Positions 58,386-63,859 of a stretch of 64,000 bases of DNA are shown here, piece after piece. Both the position numbers and the translations under genes were made by a program. Source of the DNA: Burkholderiales bacterium (GTDB taxonomy: Bacteria; Pseudomonadota; Gammaproteobacteria; Burkholderiales; Burkholderiaceae_D). The notes below the pieces were generated by a model. It searched no databases, was not told the DNA's origin, and saw only the letters and a program-made list of their open reading frames with translations. Where the stretch lies: contig JACQDW010000046.1 in NCBI GenBank assembly GCA_016200845.1, positions 1 through 64,000 of the forward strand, in the 5' to 3' direction. Position 1 is the stretch's first letter. Each line of letters begins with the position of its first letter.

Positions 58386-59153
58386 TTGTTCGTCGCCGCA
58401 GAGATGCACTCGTCTGTAGCCCATTTCCCCCCGATTATGTCCTTAATCTCTCACAACTTGCAAGCCGTCAACGAATCAATCGCGCACGCCGCGCAGCGCT
58501 ATGACCGGAATCCAACTGAAATTGCTTTATTGGCAGTGTCAAAGACCTTTCCAGTTGACGCCATTTACGAAGCATGGCAAGCCGGACAAGTTCGTTTTGG
58601 TGAAAACTATGTGCAAGAAGCGCTAAATAAAATTGCCGCCTTGCCCGCACTGATCGCCGATTCTGAAAAAATCAAACAAGTAGAATGGCATTTCATCGGC
58701 CCCATACAAAGCAATAAAACGCGCCCCATCGCAGAAAATTTCGCCTGGGTGCATTCGGTAGAGCGCGACAAAATCGCCTTGCGTTTATCCGAGCAACGCC
58801 CCGCGCATTTGCCTGATTTGCAGATTTGCCTGCAAGTGAATGTCAGCGGCGAAGCGAGTAAGAGTGGCGTCACATCCGCACAACTACCCGCGCTGGCGCA
58901 TTATGTCAGCACGCTGCCGCGACTACGATTGCGCGGCCTGATGGCGGTGCCCGAAGCGAGTGACGATGTAGCGCAACAGCGCGCCGCGTTTAAACAACTA
59001 GCGCAGTTGAAACAAGACCTGTGTGAGCAGGGCATCAAACTTGATACGCTGTCGATGGGCATGAGCGGCGACATGGACGCCGCCATCGCCGAAGGCAGCA
59101 CCTTGGTGAGAATTGGTAGTGCTATATTTGGAAAGCGAAACTATGCAGTCTGA
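58386..59153 (+). CDS. YggS-family PLP-binding protein
   Basis: EIALLAVSKTFPVDAI; RFGENYVQEAL; WHFIGPIQSNKTRPIAENFAWVHSVER; LSMGMSGDMDAAIAEGSTLVRIGSAIFG. Confidence 0.95.
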   Translation: MFVAAEMHSSVAHFPPIMSLISHNLQAVNESIAHAAQRYDRNPTEIALLAVSKTFPVDAIYEAWQAGQVRFGENYVQEALNKIAALPALIADSEKIKQVEWHFIGPIQSNKTRPIAENFAWVHSVERDKIALRLSEQRPAHLPDLQICLQVNVSGEASKSGVTSAQLPALAHYVSTLPRLRLRGLMAVPEASDDVAQQRAAFKQLAQLKQDLCEQGIKLDTLSMGMSGDMDAAIAEGSTLVRIGSAIFGKRNYAV

Positions 59154-59967
59154 TTTAAAAATTGGTTTTATCGGCGGCGGCAATATGGCAGGCGCGCTGA
59201 TCAGTGGTTTGGTCAAGCAAGTCAATCATGCGCAACAATTGTTGGTGGTGGATTTGAATGCAGATAGTCTGCAAAAACTGTCGTCCACATTTGGCGTCGC
59301 CACAGCGCAGCAAATTGACCAGCGTCTGGCAGAGATGGACGTCATCGTGTTCGCCGTCAAACCCCAGCAAATGCAAGCGGTGGTCAAAAGTGTACAACCC
59401 TTTGTGCGCACACAATTGCTACTATCAGTCGCAGCCGGAATCCGCGCTAGCGATATGGCGCGTTGGTTAGGCGACTATCAAAAAATCGTGCGCGCCATGC
59501 CCAATACCCCCGCCATGATAGGGCAGGGCATGACAGGATTGTTTGCACTAGAAGCAGTAAGCGAGCAAGAAAAAAACGCAGCACAAGCGATCATGCAAGC
59601 AGTCGGGCAAACCATCTGGGTAGAAAACGAAAGCCTGATCGACGCCGTCACCGCCGTCTCCGGCAGCGGTCCCGCCTACGTGTTTTATTTCATCGAAGCC
59701 CTACAACAAGCCGGCATCGCCTTAGGCCTCAGCGAAGCGCAAGCCAAACAAATGGCACTCGCCACCTTCAACGGCGCAGCTCAATTGGCGCAGCAATCAG
59801 AAGAACCGATTCATGTGTTGCGTGAGCGAGTGACCTCTAAAGGTGGAACGACCTACGCTGCACTCACTAGCATGGAAGCGGATGGCGTCGCCAACGCGAT
59901 TGTGCGTGCGGTGCATGCGGCGGCGAATCGGGGTAGGGAGTTGGGGGAGGAGTTTGGGCAGGGGTGA
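59143..59967 (+). CDS. proC: Pyrroline-5-carboxylate reductase (3' part possibly replaced)
   Basis: LKIGFIGGGNMAGALISGL; VVFAVKPQQM; VRAMPNTPAMIGQGMT; VTSKGGTTYAAL. Confidence 0.96.
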   Translation: MQSDLKIGFIGGGNMAGALISGLVKQVNHAQQLLVVDLNADSLQKLSSTFGVATAQQIDQRLAEMDVIVFAVKPQQMQAVVKSVQPFVRTQLLLSVAAGIRASDMARWLGDYQKIVRAMPNTPAMIGQGMTGLFALEAVSEQEKNAAQAIMQAVGQTIWVENESLIDAVTAVSGSGPAYVFYFIEALQQAGIALGLSEAQAKQMALATFNGAAQLAQQSEEPIHVLRERVTSKGGTTYAALTSMEADGVANAIVRAVHAAANRGRELGEEFGQG

Positions 59968-60200
59968 TGGTTTGTGGCTGAATTATTTTTGAGCTTGGAT
60001 GTTTTTGTGGAATGGATTTGAGTTGGGCGGGCTCTAGGTTCTCTGTGCGCACTGTTTGCAGGTTCGGTTATACCTTCGCTTTAGACAACGCGACTACTTT
60101 AAGCAAGTGGGAATGCGGGTTTTAAGTGATTTGAAATCATTTGCGTTTGAATGCTTGGTCGGGTATCTTTGCATCTTGCAAATTAAAACACGTAGGCCAA
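59752..60200 (+). repeat. Direct repeat copy A: proC 3' end plus downstream leader
   Basis: Homologous to 62025-62473 at constant 2,273 bp offset; strong at both ends (proC tail; ttgaaatcatttgcgtttgaatgc). Confidence 0.85.
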
Positions 60201-60781
60201 TGCCAATAATTAAGCTTCGCTCCCTGTTTCAATCTAGATCGAACGGCAGTCTCGGTAAAACGGGCGGTGCTTACACTGTTACGGAGCGCGACTCTGTCGT
60301 ACGACTTAGTGACGTTCCACAATCGTCAGTTGGCGCTCCGCTGCCCTGTGTTATCGCGACGGAGCATTCCCTTGCGGTTGCCTTCTTACTTCAAGAAAAT
60401 GACCCAAACTGGGATGGATCGTATGTGCGGGTTGTTTCGCAAGAGTCTGATAACGAACCTATTGGGATAGTCCGTTTTACACATGCAATTGCTCATTTTT
60501 TTGGCCCGCCGAACGACGAAGCATTTGGTGGTCACCCCTTGGCCGAACGAGGTCTTGAGCCATATGGCGCTTTTGAAGTCACATCCTCTGCATGGATTCA
60601 TGCCCTTGAACGTATGAATGCGGTTCATCCATATCACAAGCCGGAGCACTTCAAAGACTATAAGCACTTCGTCCTCTCATTTCATGACACAACGTTTGAG
60701 TGCGTTGCAGTTAGTTACTCTTGCGAGGTTCATAGAGGTAATTTGCAGCAGGTTATGGTTGAATTATTTCAGTCTCAATGA
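60200..60781 (+). CDS. Hypothetical protein (cargo ORF 1)
   Basis: MPIIKLRSLFQSRSNG..., internal ATG of ORF 60056..60781; upstream codons lie in the repeated leader. Confidence 0.6.
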   Translation: MPIIKLRSLFQSRSNGSLGKTGGAYTVTERDSVVRLSDVPQSSVGAPLPCVIATEHSLAVAFLLQENDPNWDGSYVRVVSQESDNEPIGIVRFTHAIAHFFGPPNDEAFGGHPLAERGLEPYGAFEVTSSAWIHALERMNAVHPYHKPEHFKDYKHFVLSFHDTTFECVAVSYSCEVHRGNLQQVMVELFQSQ

Positions 60782-60804
60782 GTGCCAAACAAATATGGCC
60801 TCAA

Positions 60805-60849
60805 CGAGTAAGCTTGTTGGGCGGGTGTAACGCGCGTAGGGCTTACTCG
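60805..60849. repeat. 9 bp perfect inverted repeat after cargo ORF 1
   Basis: cgagtaagc ... gcttactcg. Confidence 0.6.
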
Positions 60850-60917
60850 CATGAATGCGTCGTGAATTCTTGTTTGCGCGCCTCGCGCAGCGGAGGAAAA
60901 TTCTTTAGGAGGGAATT

Positions 60918-61274
60918 ATGAAGAAAACAGAAACAGTAGAAGTGGCTCGAGTACGTGGTGCAACCATCGTCAAAATCGTCACCTTGGGATCTGTGATTGG
61001 TTGGGCGTTGATGTCATCATTGTTTGGAGTTGCGGCACTCTTTGGTGTCGAGGTCATCAAGTGGAATGGAGCTTATTTGACTGGCCTTGCAGGGTTGTTG
61101 GCATCACCGTTCGTGGGCGCATTCGTTGGTCTGGTGTTTGGTTTGCTTACCTCTTTGTTTGCGTATGCTGGACTTCGGTTCTACTCGCTATTTCGAACGT
61201 TGACGGTGGAGTATATTCCTTCTGAAAATCAAGTTCAGACTAATATCATCACAGTATCTGAATCAGGTGTGTGA
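60918..61274 (+). CDS. Hypothetical membrane protein (cargo ORF 2)
   Basis: Preceded by aggaggg RBS; two hydrophobic segments. Confidence 0.7.
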   Translation: MKKTETVEVARVRGATIVKIVTLGSVIGWALMSSLFGVAALFGVEVIKWNGAYLTGLAGLLASPFVGAFVGLVFGLLTSLFAYAGLRFYSLFRTLTVEYIPSENQVQTNIITVSESGV

Positions 61275-61588
61275 TCGTCGCCTAAAATGTACGGTTTTCC
61301 AATCATTTTAGGATTGAAAGGCTGATTCGCCGCAGTGCCCCGGGGATTTTCTTGTTGCGTTTGGGCGTTGCCAATGCTGTGGTGATTTTGGCGGTATCCG
61401 ATCGAAGAAGGAAAGTTTTCTGTTTCCGGCGGGTGTTCTATAACGGTGCAGCAAGCGATGACCCAAGCAATAAATCGAAGAATACGAAGACGTTTTCGAA
61501 CTCTCTACAAAAAGTGTGGTACGAGATATGAAAAATCGAGCTTGTTTCGCTGCAATGTGACTCTTAAAATAGCGACGTTTCTCCAACC

Positions 61589-62023
61589 ATGAAGAACACT
61601 TATTTTTTCAGCTATGAGAAAGATTGGCGCAAAGCACCCCTCGCTTTCTGGGTGCATGTACCGATTCCGGGAACTGATAGACTTTGTTCGCCGCCAGCTC
61701 CAGAGGAAATTCCGCACAAGGGGTATTTATTCTTACATGTGGAGTTTGAAGCACATGATTTTGTGTTTAGCTCGCCCGCCCAACTTGATCATTTTATCGA
61801 TGTCTTGGCGTCAAAACCATTGCCAACCTCAACTCAACTTTCATTGCGCCGTGGGCAACCGGTAGGACCGAACAGTCATTGGCTTAGCAGGCTTCCGGCG
61901 ACTGTCAAATCACCGCGCAGGCGAGAAAAGCTGGTTGATCTATTGCGTGCGATTCGTGTTGACGTTGTTAATGAATCGGCCGGTCATGTTTTTCAGCCGA
62001 AACCTTTCGTACGAGCGACCTAA
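61589..62023 (+). CDS. Hypothetical protein (cargo ORF 3)
   Basis: 144-aa ORF; stop lies 1 nt upstream of the proC-fragment junction. Confidence 0.6.
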   Translation: MKNTYFFSYEKDWRKAPLAFWVHVPIPGTDRLCSPPAPEEIPHKGYLFLHVEFEAHDFVFSSPAQLDHFIDVLASKPLPTSTQLSLRRGQPVGPNSHWLSRLPATVKSPRRREKLVDLLRAIRVDVVNESAGHVFQPKPFVRAT

Positions 62024-62024
62024 A

Positions 62025-62203
62025 ATGGAACTCGCTACCTTCCACGGCGCAGTACAATTAGCGCAACAATTAGACGAGCCCATCCACCTACTCCGCGAAC
62101 GCGTCACCTCCAAAGGCGGCACCACCTACGCCGCACTTACCAGCATGGAAGTCAACGACGTCGCCAACGCCATTGTGCGCGCAGTGCATGCGGCAAGTAG
62201 TTG
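62025..62203 (+). pseudogene. proC 3' fragment (direct repeat copy B)
   Basis: Encodes MELATFHGAVQLAQQLDEPIHLLRERVTSKGGTTYAALTSMEVNDVANAIVRAVHAASS*, matching the ProC C-terminal part. Confidence 0.92.
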
Positions 62204-62341
62204 AGGGAGGAGTTTGGGCAAGTTTGAAGCAAGCGTGGTCTGATGCTGTGAACAATGGCTGTAGTTGAAAAAGCCATTGCTGTGAAATGGGTAAGACGGG
62301 GAAGTTTTTTCTTTTTCGATGTGCACTTTTTTCGATTCGGT

Positions 62342-62473
62342 AGTGCCTTTGATTGATGCAACGTGACTACTCTAAGAAAGTATCGATGTGGGTTTTAAGA
62401 GGTTTGAAATCAATTGCGTTTGAATGCGTGGTCAGGTATTTTTATTTTGAAAACTAAAACATGTTGGGCGGCT
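62342..62473 (+). repeat. Direct repeat copy B, leader part
   Basis: acgtgactactctaag...gggttttaagaggtttgaaatcaattgcgtttgaatgcgtggtcaggtat; corresponds to ~60085-60200. Confidence 0.8.
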
Positions 62474-62826
62474 CAATGAAACTGTTAATTCTCGTATCAG
62501 CGCTTTTACTGTCGCTACCTGCTCAAGCCGAAGTCCTTGTACTTAAGACTCAATCTTTCATAGTGAAGATTGATGTTCGCTGTGCTGAAGGGAATGTCAC
62601 GTGCGAGTACGTGCTCTACACTGGCACGAGCCGAAGAACTGGAAAATCTATTTCTGTCAAAGGTCACACAATGCATTCGAAATGCGCTGATGGTGTAACA
62701 CCATGCCGATTTCAGGGCTACACGTTTGACAACGGTAAGATCAATTACACGGTGTACGAAGATGGTGGCTTGGTTGTTATGAACGGCGACAAGACTTTGG
62801 CTAATGAAAAGGGCGTTTGGAAATAA
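62461..62826 (+). CDS. Small predicted secreted protein (start may be 62476)
   Basis: MKLLILVSALLLSLPAQAEV signal peptide; four cysteines. Confidence 0.7.
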   Translation: MLGGSMKLLILVSALLLSLPAQAEVLVLKTQSFIVKIDVRCAEGNVTCEYVLYTGTSRRTGKSISVKGHTMHSKCADGVTPCRFQGYTFDNGKINYTVYEDGGLVVMNGDKTLANEKGVWK

Positions 62827-62881
62827 CTATGCTCAACCGTACCATCAAGTGGACCGCGGCTGCGCTCGGGAAAGCATAGTT
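62825..62881. repeat. 57 bp intercistronic element bounded by a 9 bp perfect inverted repeat
   Basis: aactatgct(62825-62833) ... agcatagtt(62873-62881), exactly between stop 62826 and ATG 62883. Confidence 0.6.
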
Positions 62882-62882
62882 T

Positions 62883-63317
62883 ATGAGACAAATGAATAGC
62901 GACGCCTACCTCCGAGAACAGATTGAAAAAATACTCGGTGGAGACAAAAAACGAGTGGCAGAACTGTTTTCTGACGAGGTTCTATTTAATGTTTTAGTCA
63001 GACATGGATGCGATGGTGATTGGCTTCATTACACAAAAAGAGACCTCTGCACAACCGTCGCGAGCGTCCGAAGTTCGGGTTGAGGAGCGCACCTGTGCTA
63101 GGGTACAACGAGCACCGCAGACCCGAAATTCGGACGCGCAGTAGGTTGTGCAGGGGTCTCAAAAAGAACGTTTGATGGTTGGTATCTTGTTAGAGGTGAT
63201 GTTGGGTTTGAGGTTTACTGTCAAGATCGTGGCGCGAAAAGCGGTCATCGAATTTTTGGTTCTATCCAAGAAGCTGCAAAATATTTTTTCAAAGAGAATG
63301 GCTATGTTTACTCATAA
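62883..63317 (+). pseudogene. Small hypothetical gene interrupted by a MITE-like element
   Basis: 62883..~63039 plus 63166..63317 rejoin in frame to MRQMNSDAYLREQIEKILGG...HYTKRTFDGWYLVRGDVGFEVYCQDRGAKSGHRIFGSIQEAAKYFFKENGYVYS*. Confidence 0.85.
63040..63160. mobile_element. 121 bp non-coding MITE-like element
   Basis: Imperfect TIRs gagacctctgcacaacc/ggttgtgcaggggtctc; aaaaa on both flanks (63035-63039, 63161-63165); largely palindromic. Confidence 0.85.
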
Positions 63318-63388
63318 CTGGTCGGTCGGTTGGGATTGTTGTGGTGCCTTACAACTTGCGCGGTTAAAACACACAAGAAAGGCGCGTT

Positions 63389-63670
63389 GTGCAGAGAGTT
63401 TGTGAAATATGTGGTGCCAACACTATTGAGCTTGAAGGTCGATGTGAGTTCAATGTTCCCGAGGAGATTGCGCCTTGGCTAGATGACTACAAGGCGATGA
63501 ACTTAGGTTTGATGAGCCACGCCGAACATCAGGCTATCGTAGCTAGGTGGACGCTTCATCATTCTCAAGATAAGAGTGACAAGGTCTTGGGGACATATGC
63601 TGAGATCGTTCGCTTGTATTGGGGAAGGTCTTTGATATTAGCGAGAGAATTACCTGGTATGGCCGAGTGA
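63389..63670 (+). CDS. Hypothetical small protein with N-terminal CxxC (GTG start)
   Basis: MQRVCEICGANTIELEGRCEFNVPEEI. Confidence 0.6.
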   Translation: MQRVCEICGANTIELEGRCEFNVPEEIAPWLDDYKAMNLGLMSHAEHQAIVARWTLHHSQDKSDKVLGTYAEIVRLYWGRSLILARELPGMAE

Positions 63671-63676
63671 GCTTCA

Positions 63677-63741
63677 AGGGCGGGTGCAACCCGCGCGGCT
63701 CAGGTGCGCGTTAGATTGGCGGCGCGGGTTGCACTCGCCCT
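63677..63741. repeat. REP-like inverted repeat
   Basis: agggcgggtgcaacccgcgc ... gcgcgggttgcactcgccct; related to the palindrome at 6922-6939. Confidence 0.7.
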
Positions 63742-63859
63742 ACGATTTTGTCATGCCTGATCGTAGTGACGACGCCCCGATGCTCAGAGTTTAACGGAGT
63801 GACCATTCAAGATGCGGTTGAATTGCTCATCCGTGCTTCCAAAGCTTTACCTCGCCACC

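Follow-up and report, generated by a model that had tools for sequence, protein, structure and literature searches.

Dispersed integron attI units and a duplicated proC tail in a Burkholderiales genome

A CALIN is a cluster of at least two attC sites with no intI and no attI. The integrons described in the literature have one attI each, adjoining intI (PMC3607928, PMC9024848), and IntegronFinder detects attI only for class 1 (PMC9024848), so that attI sites with cassettes but no intI would be missed by it or called CALIN or SALIN. attG sites are divergent from both attI and attC and are broadly spread (PMC12901181, PMC12444791), and Delta-attI-type cassettes are mobile with IntI1 (PMC12901181).

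Here we describe a locus in a 64,000-bp stretch of DNA from a Burkholderiales bacterium (positions 1 to 64,000 of contig JACQDW010000046.1, assembly GCA_016200845.1; hereafter the window), at which the 3′ end of proC and the leader downstream of it occur twice, each time in front of different genes. An earlier note on this DNA had proposed that the proC 3′ end and the leader together act as a portable handle for the swapping of small genes. Our analysis retains this role for the leader, as a shared 5′ recombination region, and does not retain it for proC.

The direct repeat at proC

The two copies, 59752–60192 (copy A) and 62025–62465 (copy B), form one colinear repeat at an offset of 2273 bp, as the earlier note had claimed. 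In particular, a direct-repeat search returned two blocks at this same offset, 59750–59945/62023–62218 with 76% identity and 60063–60170/62336–62443 with 80% identity, and copy B matches copy A with E = 2e-54 (blastn against the same genome). Aligned at this offset, the bases immediately ahead of 59752 are 23% identical (random pairs average 25%), and identity is 77% over 59752–59930, about 40% over the intergenic positions 59931–60045, 52% over 60046–60091, 70% (ungapped) over the leader at 60092–60192, and 26% after 60192. The homology has an abrupt left edge within proC, and its right edge is the recombination core of each copy (the G at 60192 in copy A and the G of GTT at 62463 in copy B). 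The cargo ATGs, at 60200 and 62476, lie a few bases past the end of homology, which bears out the earlier statement that homology stops at the start of different ORFs and places the stop at the core.

The genes and sites of the locus are all on the forward strand. A complete proC (pyrroline-5-carboxylate reductase; 59143–59967; Pfam P5CR_dimer, 2e-37) contains copy A of the duplicated tail as its last 216 bp, from 59752, as defined by the repeat analysis. It is followed by attI copy A (60046–60198), which comprises a left box (60046–60074), a body (60092–60192), and a core, GTAGGCC (60192–60198), with one T fewer than the consensus GTTAGGC. The site matches profile R1 with 92.3 bits at 60093–60193; R1 was seeded with six sites of this genome, including copies A and B, and seed sites match by construction. 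A promoter-like pair found by reading (TTGCGT, 17 bp, TATCTT; 60141–60169) is a candidate cassette promoter and is absent from the list of a stricter consensus scan. Cargo A consists of a first ORF of 193 aa and unknown function, starting 8 bp past the core G (60200–60781), a second ORF of 118 aa with the look of a membrane protein (60918–61274), and a third ORF of 144 aa (61589–62023), the end of which is the left junction of copy B. The first ORF has no Pfam, NCBIfam, or PADLOC match, and its distant hypothetical relatives, with up to 36% identity, are on Paraburkholderia plasmids.

Copy B begins with a displaced proC 3′ tail (62025–62204) of 59 codons and a stop, which carries the signature of past purifying selection and matches P5CR_dimer with 2.4e-12 at profile positions 42–99 of 105. 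The tail is followed by attI copy B (62322–62469; R1 match of 82.6 bits at 62366–62464, likewise a model seed), comprising a left box (62322–62347), a body (62366–62464), and a core, GTTGGGC (62463–62469), which fits GTTRRRY. A promoter-like pair (TTGCGT, 17 bp, TATTTT; 62414–62442) was again found by reading. Cargo B is an ORF of 116 aa with a signal-peptide-like start (62476–62826), followed by a possible attC 5′ half identified by eye (GCTCAAC .. ATCAAGTGGACC; 62831–62868), the 3′ half of which is absent. Searches of the cargo ORFs against Pfam, NCBIfam, and PADLOC gave no family over cut-off, and an Rfam scan of 59700–63800 gave no family. Our attC scan found no complete attC in the window, with either cargo A or cargo B, its sole match being a palindromic MITE. 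The locus would work like a cassette site, yet without a complete attC we do not class it as a complete one.

Other repeats are present nearby. The MITE-like palindromic element, about 118 bp long (63044–63160; GAGACCTCTGCACAACC .. GGTTGTGCAGGGGTCTC), interrupts a small ORF after cargo B, and a REP-like inverted repeat, GGGCGGGTGCAACCCGCG, is present at 60805–60836 and 63664–63741 and also near an attI site of the related genome G134.

Several classifications of the locus were considered and rejected. The window has no tRNA, which excludes integration of the tRNA 3′-end type; an island with its own integrase at a gene 3′ end was rejected because there is no recombinase among the cargo ORFs and no tRNA. 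The locus is not a CALIN, since the window has no complete attC, and the two copies are not attG sites, since both match the attI profile, of which they are seeds, over 100 bp.

The leader as an integron attI site

The leader beside proC is an attI site of an integron. Elsewhere in this genome, it follows aminotransferase-like (contig C95), rsmI-like (C205), and 2-hydroxyacid-dehydrogenase-like (C120) genes and is present on C51, and R1 also finds it behind a xerC-like recombinase gene (C50) and on C41; these gene names are readings of the sequence and not database results. On C51, the leader has on one side a divergent intI truncated to 152 aa, which lacks its C-terminal part (integron integrase model, 3e-50), and on the other an array in which attC hairpins can be recognised; this is where attI is situated in an integron. 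In three relatives (G133, G143, and G149), an R1 site lies 60–70 bp from a full-length intI that is divergent from the cassettes. At C51 and in these three genomes, the R1 site adjoining intI has a GTTRRRY core, as does the attI adjoining the intI of a second clade in G126, G134, and G132. Both window copies align along their length with the intI-linked copy. Across the genus, intI exceeds the TIGR02249 cut-off in 12 of the 44 genomes, and clear attC sites are present on C51 and in G149, G129, G038, and G104.

The first cassette after attI, which contains a LexA-like box (ACTGTATGTTTATACAG), is the same on C51 of this genome (L046) and on C4 of G126 (L131), in two species and behind the attI of two different intI clades.

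The attI unit is self-contained and about 150 bp long, and it occurs at many chromosomal sites behind unrelated genes without an adjoining integrase gene. It comprises a left box, a palindrome, a promoter-like pair, and a GTTRRRY-type core. The left box, with a sequence like TGCACTTTTTGTCGATTTGGTTA, begins 131–146 bp before the core in 67 of 89 sites. It is the reverse complement of the start of intI (ATG GAC AAA AA..), so that the dispersed copies resemble a unit excised from an intI–attI junction. Information is near zero just left of the box, with some subfamilies sharing about 20 bp more. A sigma-70-like promoter pair is present in 53 of the 89 sites (60%), compared with 37 of 356 background windows (10%).

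Two further observations concern the sequence in and before the unit. The left box is strongly conserved in copies that lack intI, more so than the adjacent stretch. Before attI, strand composition flips: GT-skew is between about −0.1 and −0.16 at 600–1000 bp upstream and +0.11 in the last 200 bp at eight sites of this genome, and it goes from −0.08 to +0.10 in relatives (81 sites, n = 80 for this value); in several of this genome's genes before attI, third positions are very C-rich and G-poor and become G-rich in the last 22 codons.

Dispersal, cassette change, and moved gene tails

R1 gave 147 matches in 25 of the 44 genomes of the genus, with up to 16 per genome, and only 4 of the 147 sites adjoin intI. 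The genus-wide R1 and R2 searches used stricter filters, at the loss of weak matches, and their E-values are rough, having been obtained with a shortened calibration. R1 matches were confined to 6 of 44 genera when 296 genomes from across the family were sampled. The different attI of the second intI clade (..TTCACTTTAAAACAAGTT) is likewise scattered. The genes 5′ of the sites include those for a class II tRNA synthetase (here asnS), a histidine kinase, a MutY-like glycosylase, an RlmL-like methyltransferase, pirin, a lipoamide-dehydrogenase-like protein, and methylmalonyl-CoA mutase, among others. The 2-hydroxyacid dehydrogenase site is common to this genome, G032, G128, and G149, and positions can therefore be old. 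At proC, profile searches found neither an R1 nor an R2 site in the 43 other genomes of the genus. proC is thus one port among many and not special, and it is this result, together with the presence of the leader behind many unrelated genes, that leaves proC unsupported as the proposed handle. A pattern scan for the attI motif in a wider contig collection, which may omit related records, gave 0 matches. We found no report of multiple, orphan, or dispersed attI in the open-access full-text literature, an absence that is not proof.

Comparison of the flanks of the 89 sites revealed many orthologous pairs that keep the host gene and attI and do not keep the cargo. In 27 orthologous pairs, from groups picked by hand in this comparison, identity averages about 0.72 as far as the core and falls to 0.39, then to about 0.3, beyond it. 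Arrangement and cargo thus differ among relatives, and what varies is the cargo behind a conserved gene and leader, as expected of the shared region for small-gene swapping that the earlier note had envisaged. In most cases, the first ORF past the core begins no more than about 30 bp from it. Within 2.5 kb of the core, attC-type hairpins (score of at least 12) are 5–6 times denser on the downstream side than on the upstream side. Several are textbook attC structures; some dispersed sites have no recognisable attC downstream. The attC scan was home-made and insensitive, combining a loose fold with anchored-arm scoring, and its match to the MITE in the window is false; scoring with full R″/R′ pairing was dropped because it missed the C51 control. 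The breakpoint at the core, the nearby ORF, the attC hairpins, and the promoter-like pair are the features expected of cassettes inserted downstream of an attI that carries a promoter. On C120 (L045:1–142) and C95 (L043:1–141) of this genome, 140 identical bp follow the core behind different genes and run to both contig ends; the shared segment is either the same cassette or an insertion sequence.

Duplications of a gene tail together with attI recur at other genes. G123 has a full asnS and, about 1.3 kb further on, an asnS tail (116 codons) with its terminator, attI, and a cassette. In G133, an asnS tail with terminator and attI has moved behind a prolyl oligopeptidase gene, and in G143, an apparent asnS terminator precedes attI behind a peptidase-family gene. 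G123 also has three tandem tails of a gene read from its sequence, and not by database search, as helicase-like, each with a second-type attI and different cargo. In G117, the nearest relatives of the asnS tail differ from those of the rest of the gene, making the gene a mosaic. We infer that these duplications would have arisen when attI modules were exchanged between species by way of homologous gene tails, one of the junctions being illegitimate or made by IntI. Both homology-facilitated illegitimate recombination and the movement of integrons and cassettes through natural transformation have been described (PMC8116780, PMC3410848).

At the asnS loci L335–L345, what follows the shared asnS terminator varies among close relatives: attI of one type or another, a truncated attI, or no attI. 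GGGGTCA/TGACCCC motifs, which resemble sequences beside REP-associated transposases, are present at or near the left junctions of the moved tails in L175 (G123), L153 (G133), and L155 (G143); among the 89 sites, GGGGTC REP-like motifs gave only 6 matches between −700 and −150.

Explanations and known systems

On the sequence evidence, we consider it likely that the system is a chromosomal integron with multiple attI sites on which IntI acts in trans, with the duplication at proC as a secondary event. Cassettes are inserted at the attI core and would probably be read from the candidate promoter within the site. Most likely, a single IntI made elsewhere in the cell would recombine the attC of a cassette with all attI copies in trans. 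At proC, a proC 3′ end with attI and cargo may have arrived on DNA from a related species, either by pairing of the proC tails or by recombination at attI, and a tail with its attI would then have been left displaced downstream with its own cargo.

It is possible, though unlikely, that every site is instead the remnant of a complete integron that lost its intI, with nothing acting in trans now. Truncated intI genes on C51, on C3 of G126, and in G145 agree with such decay. No intact intI was found in this genome, the assembly of which is 70.6% complete, or in G117, G123, G063, G104, and G129, which are near-complete and have many sites. The LexA-like box points in the same direction: it is present in intI-linked attI (CTG N10 CAG in most), whereas most dispersed copies keep the outer palindrome arms and have a changed LexA core. 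However, the dispersed copies have a common left box near the intI start rather than random remnants of intI, and up to 16 sites per genome would require equally many full integrons and similar deletions. Moreover, the cassettes of close relatives differ at the same intI-less site, indicating that exchange continued without intI there. The shortage of intact intI in many site-rich genomes counts against live use, and many sites may be idle. Specifically, the window copies look old or inactive, and the window locus may be a fossil, with intI truncated in an incomplete assembly; if the system is live at all, its working form would be found in relatives with intact intI such as G133, G143, G149, and G126.

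Homologous exchange as the only process, in which transformation replaces segments from a gene tail to the next gene and the leader is merely a conserved sequence, is very improbable. Such exchange does occur, as the duplicated tails and the mosaic asnS of G117 show, and the different attI types at one asnS locus in close relatives fit it as well, but the breakpoint lies at the core in many loci, attC hairpins lie downstream, and the same site is linked to intI.

A simple tandem duplication of the proC tail and leader in this lineage, followed by a change of cargo, would yield colinear blocks at a constant offset, and we nonetheless give it very little credence, because the cargo is wholly different and the two tails have diverged as genes do under selection. 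The tails differ by 23 synonymous and 11 nonsynonymous codon differences, with 29 of 41 changes at third positions, in line with the mostly synonymous differences reported earlier. dN is 0.106–0.107 and dS is 1.05–1.40, giving a dN/dS of about 0.1. Both tails therefore evolved for a long time in working proC genes, unlike a dead duplicate, and the displaced tail came from a functional proC, as had been suspected; a dS above 1 also excludes a recent simple tandem duplication. The tails share 77% nucleotide identity with each other, and either has at most 68% over the tail with the 29 proC genes of the genus compared; they therefore belong to related but distinct lineages. As to which tail is native, A is slightly nearer to relatives, and codon style and identity gave no decision.

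Least probable of all is a role of the leader as a scattered promoter or regulatory element that has nothing to do with recombination, since its conserved promoter-like hexamers are accompanied by linkage to intI in four genomes, a GTT core, attC-bearing cassettes, and a homology break at the core, and it matches no Rfam family.

We see an even chance that the system amounts to a multi-port integron, in which one integrase would serve many self-contained units of attI and promoter spread through the chromosome. The units would sometimes carry 3′ ends of host genes, cassettes would be captured and expressed in parallel at a dozen sites, and each intI clade would have its own family of ports. 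If attI sites are scattered and used in trans, many genes now regarded as orphan hypotheticals or as degraded CALINs would in fact be first-position cassettes that are expressed, and expression in this genus would not be limited, as the rule has it, to cassettes near a single attI. Common software ignores attI sites other than the one beside the integrase. The related species offer natural experiments, with the same gene and the same attI in front of different cassettes, and the origin of attI, its spread, and its matching to integrases become testable.

Compared with known systems, the sites share with sedentary chromosomal integrons an attI between divergent intI and cassettes, a LexA-like box, a GTTRRRY core, and attC hairpins, features that are found on C51 and in G133 and G149; the difference is that a genome here can contain as many as 16 attI copies, almost none of them accompanied by intI. 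As in a CALIN, cassettes are present without a nearby intI, whereas here each site begins with attI and often has a single cassette. As with attG sites, cassettes are present at many chromosomal places, whereas here the sites form a conserved attI family of 150 bp and are inherited at fixed positions. Finally, the 2.27-kb unit between copies A and B is delimited by attI rather than by attC, like the Delta-attI-type cassettes of class 1 and class 2; those cassettes lie inside mobile integron arrays, whereas the attI units described here include the tails of host genes and occupy many chromosomal loci.
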